From Metabacillus niabensis (lineage in GTDB: Bacteria; Bacillota; Bacilli; Bacillales; Bacillaceae): a stretch of 33,944 bases of DNA. The DNA lies in the NCBI RefSeq assembly GCF_902829255.1, contig NZ_CADEPK010000228.1, forward strand, positions 1 to 33,944, given 5' to 3'. Position 1 is the first letter of the stretch. Each line of letters begins with the position of its first letter. Of this stretch, positions 18,261 to 26,559 are shown piece after piece. The translations under genes and the position numbers were made by a program. A model generated the notes under the pieces. It ran no database searches. It saw only the letters and a list, made by a program, of their open reading frames with translations, and had not been told where the DNA came from.

Positions 18261-19451
18261 TTATTTTCCAAGTTCCCAAAGCTCTAATGGTAATCCAACT
18301 AATTGCTTTCCTATTTGTTCACGCGCTAAATTGTTTGATGGTGCCATTGGAATTCCACCTCTCGCATCACGATAAAGCCGTTCAAATATTCCATTTATAT
18401 ATCCATATCCACCAGCTACATCCATTGCAACCCGTGCAGCAAAATCGGCTAATTCAGTCGCTTGGACTTTAAGTTCTGATACTTCAGTAGCAAGCGGTAA
18501 GAGTGATCCTCCTGATGCAAGAATTTCATCATGATATCTGGCTAACTCATATTGCCAGGCTCGTAATCCTGAAATTTTGATTTTGACTTCTGCTAATTTT
18601 TGACGTATAACTTGGTAATCAGCCAAACTCCGATTAAAATCTTTATGAACTGTTTTTTTTACATGTTTTATTGCTGCATCCAACGCACCTTGTGCCACGC
18701 CTAACCAGACAGCATTTAAACCTAATAACCCACCTGAAGCATCAGGGTCTCCCGCTTTAGCATTTAGCAAATCTTGTTTATGCACCTGGACATTTTCAAA
18801 CGTAAGGGGTCCACTATGATTACCACGTACCCCTAATGCATTCCATGGTTTTGCTGTTATTCCATTGGAATGTCCATTAACAATAAAAAAGCTTTGTTCA
18901 CTAGGATCATTACTATTTGCAGAACGTGTTTGAAAAACATAAAAGTCAGATTGCCCACCACTTGTTGTGAAAGATTTCTCCGCATTTAAAATATAAAAAT
19001 CACCATCTCGTTCAGCTTGACTTAAGCTATACCACACATGTCCTCCTGTCGCCTTTTCACTAATCGAGAATGTTCCTAATGCACCTTCACGAATCTTCAA
19101 AAACCAACGTTCCTTTTGCTCTTCATAACCAAAAAGATTAATAAATTGAGCTGCTGCCACATGCATAGCAAAAACGAGACCTGTCGATGCATCAACCCTA
19201 CCAATTTCTTCTGCAACGGCTGAAAATCCTACATATCCTAAATCTAATCCTCCCCATTTCTTTGGGAGCGTAACAGATGTCCACCCTTCTTTAGCTAAGG
19301 CTAAAAAATTCTCTCGGGGAAATTTTCCTTCCCTATCTATAATCTCAGCATTCGGTTTAATCACTTCATCAATAATAGGCTTAACATTCTCCTTAATTTC
19401 CTCAATAAATTCCCTTGAATTCTTATTCTTTTTCAACACTGGATTACTCAT
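18261..19451 (-). CDS. Acyl-CoA dehydrogenase-fold flavoprotein (organosulfur cluster)
   Basis: A 396-residue acyl-CoA-dehydrogenase-fold protein. It has an N-terminal helical domain (WTSVTLPKKWGGLDLGY), a middle beta domain (GTFSISEKATGGHVWYS, LNAEKSFTTSGGQSDFYV, ALGVRGNHSGPLTFENVQV) and a C-terminal four-helix domain (AMDVAGGYGYINGIFERLYRDARGG). The FAD-contact regions are present. In this fold a Glu near the end of the last domain is the usual dehydrogenase base, and I cannot place one with confidence. The enzyme may be a monooxygenase or desulfurase rather than a fatty-acid enzyme. ATG start with AGGAG seven bases upstream. It is the last gene of the cluster, separated from the preceding monooxygenase by a 218-base gap that carries a small ORF. 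Confidence 0.85.
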   Translation of the reverse strand: MSNPVLKKNKNSREFIEEIKENVKPIIDEVIKPNAEIIDREGKFPRENFLALAKEGWTSVTLPKKWGGLDLGYVGFSAVAEEIGRVDASTGLVFAMHVAAAQFINLFGYEEQKERWFLKIREGALGTFSISEKATGGHVWYSLSQAERDGDFYILNAEKSFTTSGGQSDFYVFQTRSANSNDPSEQSFFIVNGHSNGITAKPWNALGVRGNHSGPLTFENVQVHKQDLLNAKAGDPDASGGLLGLNAVWLGVAQGALDAAIKHVKKTVHKDFNRSLADYQVIRQKLAEVKIKISGLRAWQYELARYHDEILASGGSLLPLATEVSELKVQATELADFAARVAMDVAGGYGYINGIFERLYRDARGGIPMAPSNNLAREQIGKQLVGLPLELWELGK

Positions 19452-19669: not shown

Positions 19670-21034
19670 CTAATAATGTTGAAAAACACCTCGATAGTTT
19701 GCAGCAGGGTGACGAGTATTTATATAGTCATCTCCAAAAAGCTTTTTACGTAAAGTACTCGTCTCTTCTTTTCTATTTCGCACTAAACCACGCTTACGTA
19801 AAACAGGCATTACATGTTCAATAAATTCTTCATATGAGCCTGATATCGTCGAATTAATGACATTTACACCATTAATCCCAGCGTCTTTCCAAATCTCAAG
19901 TTGGTCCGCTATGCTTTCAGGAGTACCAACTATCCGAGATGATTTTGTTCGAAGACGCGCAATATCTCTTACTGTTGGAGTGCGTCCTTGTGTACTTTGC
20001 TTTAACCATTCGAATGAACTTCTCACTCCCTCCGTTTCTACATGCTCAATCATCGTATCTAAATGATAATGACCAAGGTCTACTCCCATGCCGCCAGCCA
20101 TATGGGCAATCATCATATCTAAATTGATTTTTTTATCAAGCTCTTTTTCCTTTCGTTTTGCTTCTTTTTCTGTTTCACCAATAACAAATGACAGCCCTTG
20201 ATAAAAATGAATATCATTACCCTCCCTGCCATTTTGAACAGCTAACCGACGGGTAGTATCAATTAATTGACGAGCATTCTCGGGATCGGGCGCTACAATA
20301 AATACAGCCTCTGCATGACGTGCAGCAAAGTCTCGACCTGTTGTTGATGCCCCTGCCTGAAAAAGTAAAGGTGTGCGCTGTGGCGATGGTGAGACAAGAT
20401 GTGGACCTTCAACCTTATAATACTTTCCAACATGGTTTATTTTGTGAACCTTTGTTGGGTCTGCATAGATTCCGCTCTCCCTATCTTTTTTTAAGGCTCC
20501 TTCATCCCATGAGCCTTCCCAAAGTTTATACAATACATCTACATATTCATCGAGCCAACGATAGCGTTCATCATGTGGCACTAGACCTTCGTAACCAAAA
20601 TTTCTAAAAGCATTTTCTGATGAACTTGTTACCATATTCCAGGCAATACGACCTTTAGAGATGTGATCCAATGTAGAAATACGTCTAGCGAAATTAAATG
20701 GATGTTCTTGAAGTGGAGCTGCCGTATAGGCTAAACCTAAATGCTTTGTGTTTACTGCAAGTGCTGACATAAGGACCATCGGATCATTACTTGGAATTTG
20801 CAAACCATTTTCAACATGAAAGCTCCAGCCTCCACGATGATTTCCATATAAGCCAATAACATCGGCGAAAAAAACAGCATCAAACCCTCCGTCTTCAAGT
20901 GTTTTTGCCAATGAAATCCAGACATCAATATCATTAAAATTTATCTGATTTCCTTGCTCATCACGCCATAATCCGTGGATAATATGTGATGCTGTATTCA
21001 TTACAAAGGCCGAAAATGAAAGTGGAATCGTCAT
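19670..21034 (-). CDS. NtaA/SnaA/DszA-family FMN-dependent monooxygenase
   Basis: A 454-residue LLM-class flavin monooxygenase. Family motifs seen are GGFDAVFFADVIGLYG, SALAVNTKHLGLAYTAA, HPFNFARRISTLDHISKGRIAWNMVTS, the SPSPQRTPLLFQAGAS stretch and the C-terminal RKKLFGDDYINTRHPAANYRG. Enzymes of this group use reduced FMN and O2 to oxidise sulfones, sulfides or amino-acid-like chelators; the cluster context points to organosulfur compounds. They need a separate flavin reductase, and none is in the window. A TTG just upstream is ignored; the ATG at 21034 has AGGAG about 10 bases away. It follows the DszC-like gene by 50 bases. Confidence 0.92.
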   Translation of the reverse strand: MTIPLSFSAFVMNTASHIIHGLWRDEQGNQINFNDIDVWISLAKTLEDGGFDAVFFADVIGLYGNHRGGWSFHVENGLQIPSNDPMVLMSALAVNTKHLGLAYTAAPLQEHPFNFARRISTLDHISKGRIAWNMVTSSSENAFRNFGYEGLVPHDERYRWLDEYVDVLYKLWEGSWDEGALKKDRESGIYADPTKVHKINHVGKYYKVEGPHLVSPSPQRTPLLFQAGASTTGRDFAARHAEAVFIVAPDPENARQLIDTTRRLAVQNGREGNDIHFYQGLSFVIGETEKEAKRKEKELDKKINLDMMIAHMAGGMGVDLGHYHLDTMIEHVETEGVRSSFEWLKQSTQGRTPTVRDIARLRTKSSRIVGTPESIADQLEIWKDAGINGVNVINSTISGSYEEFIEHVMPVLRKRGLVRNRKEETSTLRKKLFGDDYINTRHPAANYRGVFQHY

Positions 21035-21084
21035 CAAATACCCTCTCCTTTCTTCAACAGATTTTCGTAACTTTCACAGCAAAA

Positions 21085-22332
21085 TTAAAAATAAACCTCT
21101 TGAATTGGTAGTTCCTCATCATTCACGATAAAATTCCCAATAGCACGTGCTTTGTAAACTGTCGGATTATGTGAAGCGAGCGTTCGTATATTGCGCCAAT
21201 GACGATCAAGCTTTACAGATTGTCTTGTTGCCGAAGCACCTCCAACGTCAAATAATAATGTAGATGCCTTTAAGGCAAGTTCATCTATGATCACTTTAGC
21301 TTGTGCTGCCCGAAGAGAAGCTTCATGACTTAATTGAAAATTAATATTACCGTCGACTACAGAAGTAGCAGCCTTATCAAGCGCTTCTGCAGCTGCAATG
21401 ACAATCGTCTCCGCAGCAAAGGCAATGCTGGAAATCTCACCTATTATTTGTTGCAGCTGTGGATCTTTTGCTGGTAAATCAGCTGATGCAAATGTAAATG
21501 TTCGAGAACGACCACGAACTAATGCAGATGCATCTGTTACCACATTTCGTAAAATGCCAGCTATAACAGCTTGTAAGAAAAGCTGCAAAAATGAATTAAA
21601 TGGTGTTTTTGTTTTGTCAATCAATGTAACTTCATGTTTATGGACAAATACATTGTTCAGGTGTGTTGTACCACTACCGGTTAATTTTTGCCCGATGCCA
21701 TCCCAATCATCCACGATGACAATTCCATCTCGATTAGTTGGGATGACCGCTGATACCGTGTTTCCCTCAATAGTTGAAGCCGTTACAAGGACCCAATCAG
21801 AATACATCGTTCCTGTACTAAAATATTTCGTCCCATTCAAGCGAAAGCCATCACCATCTGGAGATAATGTTGTTTCAAATTCATATTTCCCAACATTTTT
21901 CGAGGAAATCTCAGTATATGCATTGCCTATTATGTCTCCTTTTGCGATTATTTTCAGCCATTTATCACGTTTTTGCTCGTTAGAAATTCGTAGTACATCC
22001 TCTACATACGAAAAGTGTGAACGAAGACTATGTGCAACATCTGGATCCGCTTCAGCTAAACGAATAATAATAGAAAATAGTTCACGAATATTTGCACCGC
22101 CACCTCCTTTTTCAACCGGTAAGCGCAATGCACCAAGCTTTGATTTTCGTATCAATTCCATCGCAAAATACGGACGAATTTCACAATCCTTTTTGCGACG
22201 TTTCTCTGCATCTCGGGCAATTGTTTTAATTAATTGCTCAAGTTGTGAAGAACCAACTTTTACTGGCTCAGTAAATTCCAATGGAGCATCAGTTTCCTTT
22301 AAACGATTAAAATTTGTTTTTGAATTAGGCAC
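21085..22332 (-). CDS. DszC/SfnB-like flavin-dependent monooxygenase (acyl-CoA dehydrogenase fold)
   Basis: A protein of about 415 residues. Family signs are LRLPVEKGGGGANIRELF, the beta-domain stretch LNGTKYFSTGTMYSDWVLV, DDWDGIGQKLTGSGTTHLNNV, and the C-terminal RHWRNIRTLASHNPTVYKARAIGNF, which is typical of DszC and SfnB proteins. DszC oxidises dibenzothiophene sulfur; SfnB acts in sulfone use. The substrate here is unknown. A GTG at 22332 (nine bases after GGAGG) is the likely start, with a TTG one codon upstream as an alternative. It sits between two DszA-type genes with gaps of about 45-50 bases, so the three are one operon. Confidence 0.9.
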   Translation of the reverse strand: MPNSKTNFNRLKETDAPLEFTEPVKVGSSQLEQLIKTIARDAEKRRKKDCEIRPYFAMELIRKSKLGALRLPVEKGGGGANIRELFSIIIRLAEADPDVAHSLRSHFSYVEDVLRISNEQKRDKWLKIIAKGDIIGNAYTEISSKNVGKYEFETTLSPDGDGFRLNGTKYFSTGTMYSDWVLVTASTIEGNTVSAVIPTNRDGIVIVDDWDGIGQKLTGSGTTHLNNVFVHKHEVTLIDKTKTPFNSFLQLFLQAVIAGILRNVVTDASALVRGRSRTFTFASADLPAKDPQLQQIIGEISSIAFAAETIVIAAAEALDKAATSVVDGNINFQLSHEASLRAAQAKVIIDELALKASTLLFDVGGASATRQSVKLDRHWRNIRTLASHNPTVYKARAIGNFIVNDEELPIQEVYF

Positions 22333-22377
22333 CAATAATTTCCTCCTTTTCTTAAAATGGAATTTTTTCTCTCATCC

Positions 22378-23760
22378 TTATAATTGACTGAATATTTTTC
22401 TATAACTTGCACCAGTATGGTTTTCTGGTAATCTATTCTTTCCTCTTCCATATAACTTCTCTCTTAAAGTTCCTTCTTCATAGTCGGTTTTCAATAATCC
22501 TCTTTTTTGGAGTACTGGTACGACAAGATTGACAAAATCCTTAAATGTCCCTGGTGTTATCGCATAAGCCAAATTAAAGCCATCAATATCTGTTTCATCC
22601 ATCCATTCTTCTAACGTATCTGCAATTTGTTCAGGTGTTCCGACTGCTACTGGACCATTTCCACCTATGCCGATAAAATTTGCGATCTCCCGTACAGTCC
22701 ATTTTTTATTTGGACTTGATTTTGTTATATTATGGAGTGTTGATCTCACCGCATTTGTATCAATGTATTCAATCACCTGGTCAGGGTCATATTTAGAAAA
22801 ATCTACTCCAGACCAACCACTAAGTAATGAAAGAGCACCTTCATAACTGATGTATTTTGTTAACTCTTCATATTTTGCCCATGCTTCATCCTCGGTTCTC
22901 CCGACAATTGGTGTAAATAAAGCAAAGACTTTGATGCTAGATGGATCTCTTCCGTGAATGCTTACCTGAGCTCTTAAATCCTTAACATATGAAGAAATAG
23001 CTTCTTTACCAGGAGCAGCAATAAACGTACATTCTGCGTGTTCAGCAGCAAATTTACGTCCTCTTGGAGAACCTCCAGCCTGATATAAGACAGGCGTTCT
23101 TTGTGGTGATGGTTCACATAAGTGAATACCTGGAACATCAAAATACTTACCATGATGGTTAATTTCATGTACCTTTTCTGGAACTGCGAATATTTTATTC
23201 TCCTTATCTTTTACAACCGCATCGTCTTCCCAGCTCCCCTCCCATAACTTATAGCAAACTTCTAAATACTCTTCGGCAATGTTGTATCGTTCAGAATGCT
23301 GAAATTTATCGCCAATTTCAATATTTTTTGTTCCGCTTTCTAAATAGGAGGTTACGATGTTCCAAGCGATTCTTCCTTTTGTTACATGATCTAGAGTTGA
23401 CATTCTACGAGCAAATGTATATGGATGTTCAAATGTTGTTGAGCATGTAATCCCAAAGCCTAAATGTTTTGTCACAGCTGCCATTGCTGAAACGAGCATC
23501 ATCGGATCATTAACAGGAACTTGAGTAGCTTCACGGACCGTTGTTTCCTTATCTCCTCCATACACATCATATATCCCAATTACATCTGCAATAAAAAGCC
23601 CATCAAACCTTCCTTCTTCCAATGTTTTTGCTAACTCTATCCAATAGTCAATATCGTTGTACCGATGTGATTGGTCTTCAGGATGTACCCACAAACCTGG
23701 TGACTGATGGACCACACAATTCATATCAAAGGCATTTAAATAGATTCGTTTTTTCTTCAT
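22378..23760 (-). CDS. NtaA/SnaA/DszA-family FMN-dependent monooxygenase (second copy)
   Basis: A 460-residue LLM-class enzyme (MKKKRIYLNAFDMNCVVHQ), with FDGLFIADVIGIYDVYGGD, HPYTFARRMSTLDHVTKGRIAWNIVTS, the SPQRTPVLYQAGGSPRGRKFAAEHAE stretch and C-terminal REKLYGRGKNRLPENHTGASYR. It is a paralogue of the enzyme at 19670-21034, diverged over its whole length, so substrates may differ. A longer reading from 23823 has no ribosome site; the ATG at 23760 follows GGAGG at eight bases. Its transcript leader contains the hairpin element at 23861-23933, so it is probably under attenuation control with the genes after it. Confidence 0.92.
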   Translation of the reverse strand: MKKKRIYLNAFDMNCVVHQSPGLWVHPEDQSHRYNDIDYWIELAKTLEEGRFDGLFIADVIGIYDVYGGDKETTVREATQVPVNDPMMLVSAMAAVTKHLGFGITCSTTFEHPYTFARRMSTLDHVTKGRIAWNIVTSYLESGTKNIEIGDKFQHSERYNIAEEYLEVCYKLWEGSWEDDAVVKDKENKIFAVPEKVHEINHHGKYFDVPGIHLCEPSPQRTPVLYQAGGSPRGRKFAAEHAECTFIAAPGKEAISSYVKDLRAQVSIHGRDPSSIKVFALFTPIVGRTEDEAWAKYEELTKYISYEGALSLLSGWSGVDFSKYDPDQVIEYIDTNAVRSTLHNITKSSPNKKWTVREIANFIGIGGNGPVAVGTPEQIADTLEEWMDETDIDGFNLAYAITPGTFKDFVNLVVPVLQKRGLLKTDYEEGTLREKLYGRGKNRLPENHTGASYRKIFSQL

Positions 23761-23860
23761 TACAAAGCCCTCCATTATTCTTTCTAAAACTTTTTTCAAA
23801 TTAAGGTTCTCTTTCCAATCCAAATCTGTGATATAGTTGGATATTTTTTTAAATCTACTA

Positions 23861-23933
23861 AAAAACCAGAGACATCTTTCAAGTTTTTCATGTAATCTAA
23901 CTTGAAAAATAAGTCTCTGGTTGTCCAGTCAAC
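23861..23933 (-). promoter_or_regulatory. Structured leader / attenuator, copy 1
   Basis: Read leftward: GTTGACTGGAC, then AACCAGAGAC, then an inner stem with a loop, then GTCTCTGG followed by a T run. CCAGAGAC (23866-23873 and 23913-23920) forms an 8-bp terminator stem. The CTGG before it could instead pair with CCAG in a small CTGG-ACAA-CCAG hairpin, which would break the terminator stem. It lies about 100 bases before the 23760 start. A close relative sits at 25523-25590. I do not recognise it as a SAM-I or T-box type. Confidence 0.65.
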
Positions 23934-24059
23934 TATAAACGTTTCTTTTCTAAATTAAGAAATCTTAGCTGCTTTATCTGTACCTCCAATTATCCCCATT
24001 TCGCTACCAACCATTTTGGTGTTTTTGCAAAACGTTTATTCTCTTCAAATGCTCCATTA

Positions 24060-25247
24060 TTATGAATACGGGGTAATCGGAGGAAGATGATCATTTAGTG
24101 CCCAATTTCCGATGTCACGAATTTTATAATCAATCGGATCATGCAATGTGTGTGTTCTGATATTTCGCCAAAATCGATCATATCCATACTGTCCTGAAGT
24201 TGCTCTAGCCCCCATAACTTCGAACATACGATTTGTTACCTCTAAAGCTGTCTTACTAACAGTAACCTTTGCAATCGCGATATGAATCCCGCATTCCCCT
24301 CTCTCTTCAATAGTAAGCTTAGACTTTTTATCCCATGCTTGTTGAAAAACATCGACTGCTTTTTGAGTCAATGCATTTGAGGCTTGTAACTTTACAAACA
24401 AATCTCCATATTGATAAACCGTAAAAGGGTCATCAACTGCTTTTTCGACACCGGAAGTTAACCAAGGTCGAGATTTTGTTTTTGTATAGTCTTTAGCTTT
24501 TTCAAAGGCTCCTTCAGCGATTCCAAGCAGAACATGAAGAATAATTAGTTGTGCGATATGTGTTCGCAAAGTAGGAAACAAATTATCTGGAAATTGCTCA
24601 TAGAATAGTAGCATTTCTTTTTCTTCGATCAATACATTATGAAAAATGACTGACCCACTATCAGTTTGCCGCTGTCCAAAGCTATCCCAGTCATCATGAA
24701 TGACTATTCCTGTTCGTTTACTTGGAATAACTGCAATAAAAGGCCTTTTGCGATTTGGACTCTTTGCTGAGATAAGAAGTCGGTCCGAATCGTTTGCACC
24801 AGAACAAAAGGTCTTTTTTCCATTCAACCGCCAGTTCGTACCATCATTCGTAACAGCTAATCCTTCGTCACGTGGATTAAAGGCATTCCCCCAAAATTGT
24901 CGGTGTTCAACGGTTTCTTTATACAGCTGATCTTTTTGTTGTTTTGTACCATATAGATGTACCGACGCCAGACATAGAAAATGATACCCAAGCAAATGAG
25001 CCATCGATCCATCAACTTTAGCAAGTTCACGAATGATTTGGCATACTGCCTTCCAATTCTCACCATATCCACCTAGAGCTTTCGGAATAATTAGTGAAAG
25101 TAATCCACTCTCACGAATGAGATCACGTTCTTTTTTTGCTGTTCCACCCTGTTTATCTCTATCGATAGCTGTTTTTTCCAATTTCCTTGCTAAATCAAGA
25201 GCTATATCAAGGTAATCATGTTTTGCATCTTTTGGTGATAAATTCAT
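24060..25247 (-). CDS. DszC/SfnB-like monooxygenase (acyl-CoA dehydrogenase fold)
   Basis: A 395-residue protein. It shares the DszC/SfnB signs DDWDSFGQRQTDSGSVIFHNV, LNGKKTFCSGANDSDRLL and C-terminal RFWRNIRTHTLHDPIDYKIRDIGNWALND. The N-terminal helical domain (LLSLIIPKALGGYGENW) and active-site histidine region (AHLLGYHFLCL) are intact. It probably acts with the DszA-type enzymes downstream on an organosulfur compound (inference). A longer frame from 25310 lacks a ribosome site; the ATG at 25247 has GGAGG 10 bases upstream. Its 5' leader is long (about 400 bases) and carries copy 2 of the attenuator element; a divergent TetR gene is on the other side. Confidence 0.88.
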   Translation of the reverse strand: MNLSPKDAKHDYLDIALDLARKLEKTAIDRDKQGGTAKKERDLIRESGLLSLIIPKALGGYGENWKAVCQIIRELAKVDGSMAHLLGYHFLCLASVHLYGTKQQKDQLYKETVEHRQFWGNAFNPRDEGLAVTNDGTNWRLNGKKTFCSGANDSDRLLISAKSPNRKRPFIAVIPSKRTGIVIHDDWDSFGQRQTDSGSVIFHNVLIEEKEMLLFYEQFPDNLFPTLRTHIAQLIILHVLLGIAEGAFEKAKDYTKTKSRPWLTSGVEKAVDDPFTVYQYGDLFVKLQASNALTQKAVDVFQQAWDKKSKLTIEERGECGIHIAIAKVTVSKTALEVTNRMFEVMGARATSGQYGYDRFWRNIRTHTLHDPIDYKIRDIGNWALNDHLPPITPYS

Positions 25248-25522
25248 GCCGGTTTGCCCTCCTTTTCTTTTTGTGGAACAAAATATGTAAATTATTCTTT
25301 TATTAGCCAATAATGTGATTATTTATTTTTCATTTCTATTTCCTTCATAAATTCAAGAAGCTTATTTGAAAGAAGTCTATATCTGATATTTTAAGATACT
25401 CACTCTTCACTAAAATTTGTTTTGGTTTAATGAAGCCCATTATTCCATTCAAATTGATTCCTCAAATAATCTCCTAGCCTTGAAGGATTCGAAATAAATT
25501 CTTAATGAATCAGCAGTAATAC

Positions 25523-25590
25523 AAAAAGAGACCTTTATTTACAGCTTAAGAAATTAAGCTTCCATAAAAGTCTCTGGTAGTCCAGTCAAC
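25523..25590 (-). promoter_or_regulatory. Structured leader / attenuator, copy 2
   Basis: Read leftward it has the same GTTGACTGGAC followed by TACCAGAGAC, then an inner stem (AGCTTAA / TTAAGCT, loop GAAA type), then GTCTCT with a T run. The terminator stem AGAGAC / GTCTCT is at 25527-25532 and 25570-25575. The small alternative hairpin CTGG-ACTA-CCAG overlaps the CCAG part of the stem. It lies about 56 bases after the likely transcription start and about 275 bases before the ATG at 25247. Confidence 0.65.
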
Positions 25591-25674: not shown

Positions 25675-25959
25675 ATACAACATACAATTAACACAATTTT
25701 GACGTTTAAAATACATATGAATCAAATATGTTTATTATATTTACATTACACTACACTTTTTTCTTAATTGTTTATCTGAAAACGAAAAAGAATCTACTAT
25801 GACCTACTACACAATCCATACAATTCCTATTGATTAAATCAGAATTTTGTGCATATTATAATAACAAAGATCAGAATAAGTAATGCAAGCCTCATTATAA
25901 AATTTTATTCGATAAAAGTACTTAAAATTGACTGAATTGTCATTACTTTGGAGGATACG

Positions 25960-26559
25960 ATGGAGAATCTTGAACAAAATATCGATCGCCGAATCATTCG
26001 TACTCGTCATATGATATATGAGACCTTTCTTGCACTCATGTCTGAGAAGGATTTTTTGCAAATTTCCGTCAAGGATATTACTCAACAAGCGAATATAAGC
26101 CGGTCAACTTTTTATGCGCATTATAAAGACAAATATGATTTACTAGATAAAATAATTGAAGATAAATTATCAATATTAAATGAGCTCCTAGCAAAATCTA
26201 ACCTACCTAATAATGCATGGAATAACGAAGTAGCCGATCCCTTTTTTGTCACGTACTTTGAATGTATTGCTAAGAACTATACGTTTTACAAACAGATGTT
26301 CATGATTAAGGATCCTAATCAATTTTCAACAAAATTATATCATGTGATAAGAGAAAGTTTTTCTATTAGGTTTTCAAGAATAGATAAAGAACGTAAACTT
26401 TCAGTTCCTTTGGATTTCTTGCTTGATTATAGTACCTCATCTCTCTTAGGAGTGACAAAAGTATGGGTGGAAAACCATATGATTTATTCCCCTAATTACA
26501 TAGCCTTGCAATTTACTAGATTATCGATAAATGGTATCTATCATACAATGAAAAAATAG
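25960..26559 (+). CDS. TetR/AcrR-family transcriptional regulator
   Basis: A 199-residue protein. The N-terminal DNA-binding domain is RTRHMIYETFLALMSEKDF, then ISVKDITQQANISRSTFYAHYKDKYDLLDKI, the classic TetR helix-turn-helix with its signature STFYxHYxxKxxLL. The C-terminal domain resembles the ligand domains of Bacillus TetR regulators with short, helical sensor parts. It is divergent from the monooxygenase cluster and is the most likely local repressor, perhaps sensing a sulfur substrate (inference). The start at 25960 has GGAGG at five bases; an in-frame TTG four codons earlier lies inside the ribosome site. Confidence 0.9.
   Translation: MENLEQNIDRRIIRTRHMIYETFLALMSEKDFLQISVKDITQQANISRSTFYAHYKDKYDLLDKIIEDKLSILNELLAKSNLPNNAWNNEVADPFFVTYFECIAKNYTFYKQMFMIKDPNQFSTKLYHVIRESFSIRFSRIDKERKLSVPLDFLLDYSTSSLLGVTKVWVENHMIYSPNYIALQFTRLSINGIYHTMKK

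Follow-up and report, generated by a model that had tools for sequence, protein, structure and literature searches.

In the BglG/LicT/SacY systems a small hairpin with asymmetric internal loops, the RAT, overlaps the 5′ arm of a terminator and, when held by its protein, lets transcription continue. In the hut operon of Bacillus the gene for a small regulator, HutP, stands directly ahead of an attenuator that governs the remaining genes. T-box leaders pair with the end of a tRNA through a bulge, UGGNACC, that is invariant, and guanidine-II (mini-ykkC) leaders consist of two hairpins, each with an ACGR loop. Attenuators have also been reported ahead of sulfonate genes: the terminator scan of Naville and Gautheret (2010) describes an “ABC-leader” before an alkanesulfonate transporter operon in bacilli and also an element common to the leaders of a sulfonate ABC operon and of an unknown gene (PMC2965389). 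In the passages of that paper that deal with them, these attenuators come without a consensus, family, partner or regulon; they may be the same element as the one treated here. DUF2292 is the family of OscA of Pseudomonas, which the relevant passages of two papers present as a small sulfur-starvation protein of function not known, encoded in one unit with a sulfate-binding protein gene and tied, as they cite Viti et al. (2009), to sulfur starvation and Cr(VI) resistance, a link to starvation and chromate tolerance that is reported there without a mechanism (PMC2996968; PMC3596284).

Here we analyze a stretch of 33,944 nucleotides from Metabacillus niabensis (contig NZ_CADEPK010000228.1; “the window”), in which a first-pass annotation had inferred, ahead of two monooxygenase genes, a new kind of sulfur-gene attenuator, either riboswitch-like or bound by a protein. 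The two copies belong to a large, apparently undescribed family of hairpin attenuators before sulfur genes. The family, the arm that its hairpin shares with a terminator, the covariation, the sulfur regulon and the co-occurrence and adjacency with the DUF2292 gene yezD are all computed directly from the genomes. We propose, with a probability of about 60%, that the element is a transcription attenuator whose hairpin, held by YezD, antiterminates when sulfur is short.

A 21-nt hairpin sequence, GTTGACTGGACnACCAGAGAC, occurs twice on the minus strand of the window ahead of the monooxygenase genes (Table 1). Both 21-mers match exactly at the places given in the first-pass annotation, and the chance expectation for them with up to three mismatches was 0.00 matches (100 shuffles). 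The elements fold at −26.0 kcal/mol (z −5.06) and −21.8 kcal/mol (z −3.83), and for either one none of 200 shuffles folded as stably. The alternative 21-nt hairpin consists of CUGG-ACnA-CCAG and a lower stem, and since its 3′ half doubles as the 5′ arm of the terminator, hairpin and terminator are mutually exclusive in both elements, as had been claimed. Energy favors the terminators (−22.4 and −20.9 kcal/mol) over the hairpin (−5.3 kcal/mol). A simple consensus terminator scan of the window, which permits loops of 3–8 nt only, listed neither of these terminators, and a promoter scan listed no promoter ahead of them. A TATAAT box can be seen by eye upstream of element 1; it is absent from the promoter-scan list.

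Table 1. Features of the two window elements and of the gene cluster behind them.
Feature	Position	Strand	Remark
Element 1, conserved 21-nt hairpin GTTGACTGGACTACCAGAGAC	25570..25590	(-)	model R1 33.6 bits
Element 1, intrinsic terminator with T run, 5′ arm starting within the 21-mer	25520..25575	(-)	
Gene behind element 1: DszC/SfnB-like flavin monooxygenase with an acyl-CoA dehydrogenase fold	24060..25310	(-)	likely ATG start 25247
Element 2, conserved 21-nt hairpin GTTGACTGGACAACCAGAGAC	23913..23933	(-)	model R1 35.7 bits
Element 2, intrinsic terminator with T run, overlapping the 3′ half of the 21-mer	23859..23920	(-)	
NtaA/DmoA-family FMN-dependent monooxygenase behind element 2	22378..23823	(-)	likely ATG start 23760
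SfnB-like oxidoreductase, cluster of elements 1 and 2	21085..22335	(-)	
NtaA/DmoA-family FMN-dependent monooxygenase (second), cluster of elements 1 and 2	19670..21037	(-)	
Acyl-CoA dehydrogenase-family protein, cluster of elements 1 and 2	18261..19451	(-)	

Each element thus lies upstream of a monooxygenase gene, as the first-pass annotation had it. The protein behind element 1 has its best NCBIfam matches below the curated cut-offs, and that behind element 2 matches the NtaA/DmoA family above the cut-off. Element 1 is about 280 nt from its first ORF; element 2 sits in the gap between the two genes and therefore may act inside an operon.

Against Rfam 15 (4227 families), the window gave no match at gathering score and neither did the elements at 17 other loci, which agrees with the earlier impression that the leaders are unlike SAM-I, T-box and other sulfur-related leaders; sub-gathering matches were implausible or chance-like (one element, for example, reached 27.9 against 80 bits for sau-19 and 21.9 against 54 bits for PyrR). 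Like the control proposed for the hairpin family, that by the S-box (SAM-I) acts on sulfur genes of these bacteria through a terminator, but the S-box is a separate element: RF00162 does not match at the hairpin itself, although it matches nearby in two cysH operons (L079 and L178) and at L076. By eye, an S-box is also present at a Cytobacillus locus (L295). A T-box-like pairing of UGGA with the UCCA end of a tRNA was rejected, because the UGG lies in a stem and gives way to UAG or CGG together with compensating changes; Rfam, too, gave no T-box match at gathering score in the window or at the 17 loci. Guanidine-II was likewise rejected: there is one hairpin only, loop position 12 can be any base (A 72, C 40, G 19 and T 11 of 142 copies) and the genes are different. 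The letters GACTGGACGACCAGAGAC, present in some copies, do occur as well in enterobacterial leaders that look like guanidine-II. A leader-peptide attenuator using UGA at positions 3–5 as its stop was set aside, position 3 being C in 55 of 142 copies, and no consistent upstream leader-peptide frame was seen by eye among the copies viewed.

The RAT also offers a likeness, in that a hairpin lies over a terminator arm and, as we propose here, is held by a protein. The present family appears to differ from the RAT in sequence and comes without sugar or PTS genes, and in place of a CAT/PRD protein the candidate is DUF2292, a helix and beta hairpin of 50–70 aa. HutP parallels the arrangement of yezD, in which the gene of the putative regulator stands ahead of a terminator containing what is probably its target. 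HutP belongs, however, to another Pfam family (PF10055 was the sole Pfam match of a DUF2292 protein beside an element), whereas the RNA target here is a conserved hairpin and the regulon is wide and sulfur-directed. No description of the 21-nt hairpin was found in the open-access papers searched. The mechanism of attenuation is of a known kind; what appears to be new is the RNA family, together with the protein class that we propose.

Our covariance model, R1, was built from 25 copies and confined to the 21 nt, and the downstream terminator therefore serves as an independent test. The collection of 203 matches was reduced to 155 distinct ones by merging identical 70-nt sequences and to 149 by removing six with indels. 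A strict terminator follows the hairpin in 118 of the 149 ungapped copies and in 22 of 26 phylum loci; the same test is passed by 44 of 8000 positions drawn at random and by 8 of 885 offsets close to the hairpins. A lax test passed 142 of 149 copies, yet also 1406 of 6000 random positions, and because of this 23% base rate it was dropped for the strict one. In all 118 copies the terminator is more stable than the hairpin, with medians of −23.1 and −5.3 kcal/mol; termination is therefore expected to be the default, and something must hold the hairpin. The arrangement found is that of an intrinsic-terminator attenuator, a hairpin exclusive with a terminator that shares its arm.

The consensus is G-YY-GA-YYRG-WNNA-CYRR-A-RR-C, with positions 1–3 paired to 19–21 and 6–9 to 14–17 around a GA/A internal loop. 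Across 142 copies A5, G9 and C14 are invariant, A18 varies once (141), G4 is kept in 136 and A13 in 135, and the paired positions 2, 3, 6, 7, 8, 15, 16, 17, 19 and 20 all vary. The conserved RNA with compensatory changes that had been postulated is borne out: 98.9% of cells are paired in the 25-row alignment (shuffled, 90.0%) and 98.5% in an alignment of 65 distinct rows (shuffled, 85.0%). Changes on both sides of a pair number 25 in the 25 rows against 0–1 in slid controls, and 88 in the 65 rows against 0–18, counts in which related sequences enter as separate rows and, for the larger set, a few doubtful weak matches (up to E 1) are included. Further pair types were no higher than in shuffles in either row set (8 against 8.8; 12 against 11.5), nor, in the 65 rows, was the number of pairs showing a double change (5 against 4.2). 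With few exceptions the double changes are transitions, mostly C-G/U-A, that keep the pyrimidine-purine orientation, a bias that the constraints of a terminator with a U-rich 3′ arm would favor and that qualifies the covariation. The U8-A15 version of one pair comes from copies on three related Priestia plasmids, and a form with a five-nucleotide loop is found behind yezD in two genomes (G512 and G669). Flanks and inner stems differ among copies while the hairpin is kept, as had been noted for the window pair, and the copies are single hairpins, which speaks against origin as a mobile element.

In the genome of the window a mismatch-tolerant pattern found a third copy, ahead of a threonine-synthase-like gene, and R1 gave ten matches at E ≤ 3; genomes elsewhere carry up to about a dozen copies, Aneurinibacillus, Aeribacillus and Bacillus methanolicus being among the multi-copy species. 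Over the 21 genomes of the genus, R1 had no match in G003, G006, G007 and G008, and one genome (G019) has many equal-scoring weak matches (about 18 bits) that look repeat-like. At the level of the order, 20 of 397 genomes matched the pattern, with about half as many for a reversed control pattern, and seven loci besides the window's genome look real by sequence and terminator. An exact pattern scan of an 84,980-species collection returned 53 loci, most commonly in Paenibacillus and also in Neobacillus, Aeribacillus, Aneurinibacillus, Brevibacillus, Terribacillus, Oceanobacillus, Thermobacillus and others; outside these genera it reached Alkalibaculum and metagenome-assembled genomes labeled Lachnospiraceae, Acidaminococcaceae and Treponema. 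Ten enterobacterial loci (Rahnella, Ewingella and others) were set apart as looking like another kind of leader, presumably guanidine-II; the one that was scanned, L037, had no Rfam match at gathering score. Planctomycete, myxobacterial and Kangiella matches (L053, L064, L070, L077, L084 and L088) lack a terminator and were judged to be chance or coding matches.

The genes behind the hairpin are mostly sulfur genes, in many genera, as the proposed linkage required. In the window's genome, besides the copies already mentioned, a tandem pair precedes ssuA-ssuD-ssuC-ssuB-type genes, one element precedes tauE, an Rrf2 gene and a yezD cut by the contig end, a pair precedes a luciferase-like monooxygenase, and two precede substrate-binding, ABC and TauD-like genes. 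Elsewhere (gene names are HMM results for the scanned proteins and were otherwise assigned by reading) elements are followed by cysH operons (L032/L079, L178, L180), Sat (L206, L210, L212, L218), cysteine-synthase-like PALP enzymes (L200, L201, L213), OAH sulfhydrylase (L076), homocysteine S-methyltransferase (L193), fumarate/APS-reductase-like flavoproteins (L028), MarR with arylsulfotransferase in Paenibacillus and, behind a tandem pair, S-adenosylmethionine synthetase (L214, L219). Among 144 elements passing the lax terminator test, 135 had a complete ORF behind them, and 94 of these first genes fell into clusters labeled sulfur or organosulfur, by hand labels that count in generic binding-protein and ABC genes and with one Paenibacillus-type operon supplying 16 of the 94. 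The commonest Pfam families among 52 cluster representatives were NMT1 and NMT1_2 (six each), Bac_luciferase (five) and BPD_transp_1 (five). Some elements precede genes whose role in sulfur metabolism is not obvious, among them a phosphoribosyltransferase operon headed by tandem elements (L033, L189) and genes for surface proteins of Alkalibaculum. On the Priestia plasmids a DUF2292 gene lies near the element, which precedes a Met/Cys-rich ORF, a finding that makes the direction of control less certain. Sulfur-assimilation genes are not annotated near these loci, but p-LAD2 has a MetQ-type protein there.

Small ORFs near elements in deep-branching genomes were identified as DUF2292/YezD, and this family tracks the hairpin. 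PF10055 scored above its cut-off in all 45 matching phylum genomes and in 15 of the 21 genus genomes, and also matched in the window's genome (G000), where the gene is cut at a contig end. A laboratory strain of Bacillus subtilis likewise has a DUF2292 match. Counting that cut gene, DUF2292 is present in 15 of 15 genus genomes with an element at E ≤ 0.01 and in one of the six without (G002); it was not found in G003, G006, G007, G008 and G020. In G002 the weak element (E 0.14) is followed by a strict terminator and precedes yezD by about 1 kb, and the single match of G020 (E 0.97) has no terminator; both were listed as weak before the DUF2292 search and were split by the terminator afterwards. 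In a phylum set of 299 genomes, 23 carried an element at E ≤ 0.001 under stricter filters and 45 carried DUF2292, which occurred in 22 of the 23 element-bearing genomes (21 without the cut gene of G000) as against 24 of the 276 others, an overlap of 21 or 22 where 3.5 would be expected (23 × 45/299). For these two overlaps Fisher's p is 9e-18 or 1e-19 with the genomes treated as independent, though they are related. The control gene, sulfate adenylyltransferase (sat), is present in 61 of the 299 genomes and in only 9 of the 23 with an element; the genomes that have it comprise nine with both element and DUF2292, none with the element alone, five with DUF2292 alone and 47 with neither. One genome, G556, has a hairpin with a strict terminator and DUF2292 was not found in it. 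The stricter scan found no element in 24 of the 45 genomes with DUF2292; a relaxed scan of these 24 gave matches in 12, against 2 of 15 controls lacking DUF2292, and about seven look real of those inspected in 11 of the 12 genomes.

In 13 phylum genomes the hairpin and the DUF2292 match share a strand and the hairpin follows at a distance of 1–168 nt (in one of them, G653, without a terminator). Among distinct yezD genes with enough sequence downstream, 22 of 67 have a hairpin within 180 nt 3′ (17 within 40 nt), a count in which some loci had been fetched through the hairpin; of the other ORFs at the same loci, 13 of 621 do. Among phylum loci fetched by the protein alone, the best-scoring ones, the hairpin lies this close behind yezD in 13 of 31. 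The hairpin starts directly after the yezD stop codon at L276 and contains that codon at L210. In an annotated record of Cytobacillus spongiae, yezD is followed by a hairpin at its stop codon and by cysH-sat-cysC and sulfite reductase, and in one of Niallia the hairpin behind yezD is followed by a start that by eye resembles arylsulfotransferase genes. In the genus of the window, yezD stands directly ahead of an element at none of 17 protein-fetched loci, and at four of the 17 an element lies 0.6–1.6 kb upstream of yezD. No element is present at the DUF2292-like places of Novosphingobium and of a Paenibacillus plasmid (L300, L301).

We favor the protein-bound form of the switch over a riboswitch because DUF2292/YezD co-occurs with the hairpin and often lies directly ahead of it; YezD is likely the factor that works these switches. 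The leader RNA would adopt either the 21-nt hairpin or the intrinsic terminator built on the hairpin's 3′ half. Left alone it would form the more stable terminator, and transcription would stop; under sulfur shortage YezD (OscA in Pseudomonas) would bind and hold the hairpin, and the polymerase would read through into the sulfur-acquisition genes. We infer the binding, the direction of read-through and the sulfur signal from the arrangement of sequences and genes. On balance we also think that DUF2292 represents a new class of RNA-binding antiterminators that read one conserved 21-nt hairpin and serve a wide sulfur-acquisition regulon across Bacillota and perhaps in Treponema. The sulfur attenuator of the first-pass annotation is thus supported by covariation, by sulfur linkage and by the absence of an Rfam match at gathering score at the elements scanned, and of its two proposed forms the protein-bound one is preferred.

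A small-molecule riboswitch, in which the hairpin would bind a sulfur metabolite and yezD would merely belong to the regulon, we consider unlikely. In its favor, the unpaired A5, A18, G4 and A13 are conserved, G556 has the element and apparently no DUF2292, and in the genus of the window yezD is found at some distance downstream of elements, a position that would suit a gene under their control. On the other hand, an aptamer of 21 nt with a single 2x1 internal loop would be a very small one, yezD is ahead of the hairpin rather than behind it in 13 of the 31 phylum loci, as suits a regulator, and sat, another sulfur gene, does not track the element. There is a precedent for one hairpin, the HMP-PP/thiS riboswitch being termed a simple hairpin in the passage that mentions it (PMC8632094). 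The same protein might instead bind the hairpin or the terminator and promote termination, so that the genes are off when sulfur is plentiful. The Met/Cys-rich ORF on the Priestia plasmids, odd as a starvation-induced gene, would then be easier to understand; we nevertheless hold this to be quite unlikely, as the terminator is already far the more stable structure in every copy compared, the conserved and covarying part is the hairpin, as expected of the bound form, and OscA is placed within the sulfur-starvation response in the passages that describe it (PMC2996968; PMC3596284).

Another trans factor, with YezD as a passenger, seems very unlikely. An uncharacterized 124-aa protein family is encoded behind several elements and an Rrf2 protein in the tauE-yezD stretch of the window's genome, and either might be thought to bind the hairpin. 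The 124-aa protein was rejected, being present in just 8 of the 21 genus genomes and missing from six with strong elements (G005, G009, G010, G014, G016 and G017), and Rrf2 proteins are DNA-binding. That the copies are ordinary intrinsic terminators or a dispersed repeat of no regulatory role is hardly credible: most do end in a terminator and the weak matches of G019 look repeat-like, but the 5′ half of the hairpin, dispensable to the terminator, is conserved and covarying, the linkages to particular genes and to DUF2292 are specific, and flanks and inner stems differ, so that covariation and linkage already contradict this reading.

Antitermination by YezD would add a layer of RNA-level sulfur control, with a wide gene set, beside the S-box and T-box, and it offers a concrete candidate molecular function for DUF2292/YezD/OscA. 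If true, it would account for the phenotype that oscA shows in Pseudomonas with respect to sulfur starvation and chromate, and a 21-nt hairpin with a protein of about 55 aa would make a very compact switch. The partner protein falls in PF10055 and matches the OscA family NF033785 weakly, the only protein scanned (from L079) scoring 32.4 bits against a curated cut-off of 85 bits. No RNA-binding role for DUF2292, YezD or OscA was found in the open-access papers searched, and comparison of the predicted YezD fold with PDB structures found no relative (best match E 3.7). The fold, predicted from two sequences, is a helix and a beta hairpin with a mean pLDDT of 80.7. The matched region has a median net charge of 0. 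Conservation over 74 distinct segments is highest for a G and a Q, present in 100%, followed by E in 96%, R in 93% and K in 89%.

On three Priestia plasmids the element, the 21-nt hairpin overlapping the 5' arm of an intrinsic terminator, is accompanied by a long terminator-like hairpin and lies upstream of a 66-70 aa open reading frame very rich in methionine and cysteine, convergent with the plasmid gene for DUF2292, the proposed antiterminator. For a sulfur-rich protein to be controlled by the same switch would be odd, and informative on the sign of control.

Features associated with the element (L numbers are fetched loci)
Feature	Coordinates	Strand	Setting
Element	L297:8787-8807	minus	Priestia plasmid
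Element	L298:8897-8917	minus	Priestia plasmid
Element	L299:8930-8950	minus	Priestia plasmid
Uncharacterised ~124-aa protein	L133:6452-6823		beside element
Uncharacterised ~124-aa protein	L131:4488-4856		beside element
Uncharacterised ~124-aa protein	L071:6567-6938		beside element
Uncharacterised ~124-aa protein	L027:10611-10988		beside element
TetR-family regulator	window 25948-26559	+	beside element 1

In organosulfur clusters, elements are adjoined by a well-conserved protein of ~124 residues (INKGVYNTIDNWFYEYG...RFGHGGL), which is found in 8 of the 21 genus genomes and had no match in Pfam (two members searched) or NCBIfam (one member). Beside element 1, the gene of the TetR-family regulator is divergent from the monooxygenase cluster, and its product is a possible candidate for regulation at the DNA level. 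Upstream of cysH operons, an S-box riboswitch and the element occur in series (L079:7565-7765, L178:5580-6033, L295:11800-12148); in the Cytobacillus locus L295, where the S-box was assigned by eye, yezD lies between the two.

The letters GACTGGACGACCAGAGAC are shared with the element by ten enterobacterial leaders (L037, L044, L047, L048, L055, L060, L062, L068, L069 and L078), which also have a second hairpin of the GGACGACC type and which we take to resemble guanidine-II; an Rfam scan of the L037 leader returned nothing at the gathering score. Across L177:5913-6024, which spans one element, the Rfam families sau-19 and PyrR matched at 27.9 and 21.9 bits against thresholds of 80 and 54, respectively. 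A Bacillus methanolicus RNA-seq study (PMC4342826) lists PyrR sites upstream of ssuA1 and metN1, and these might be the element under the wrong name. Genome G019 holds many scattered weak matches of equal score (~18 bits) to R1, the model of the hairpin alone, probably representing a dispersed repeat; one (L111:224-243) was included in the pooled hits as an indel hit without a terminator.

Other downstream genes include one for a 640-aa protein (L121:7686-9605) that combines a chemotaxis-receptor signalling region with an SsuA-type sulfonate-binding domain. Bacillus methanolicus and Aneurinibacillus both have tandem elements (L033:8380-8657, L189:625-767) ahead of a nicotinate/nicotinamide phosphoribosyltransferase-like operon with no evident tie to sulfur. 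One of the four elements of a Bacillota genome (L220:1501-1521) is followed by a small open reading frame and a NifH-family gene (PF00142).
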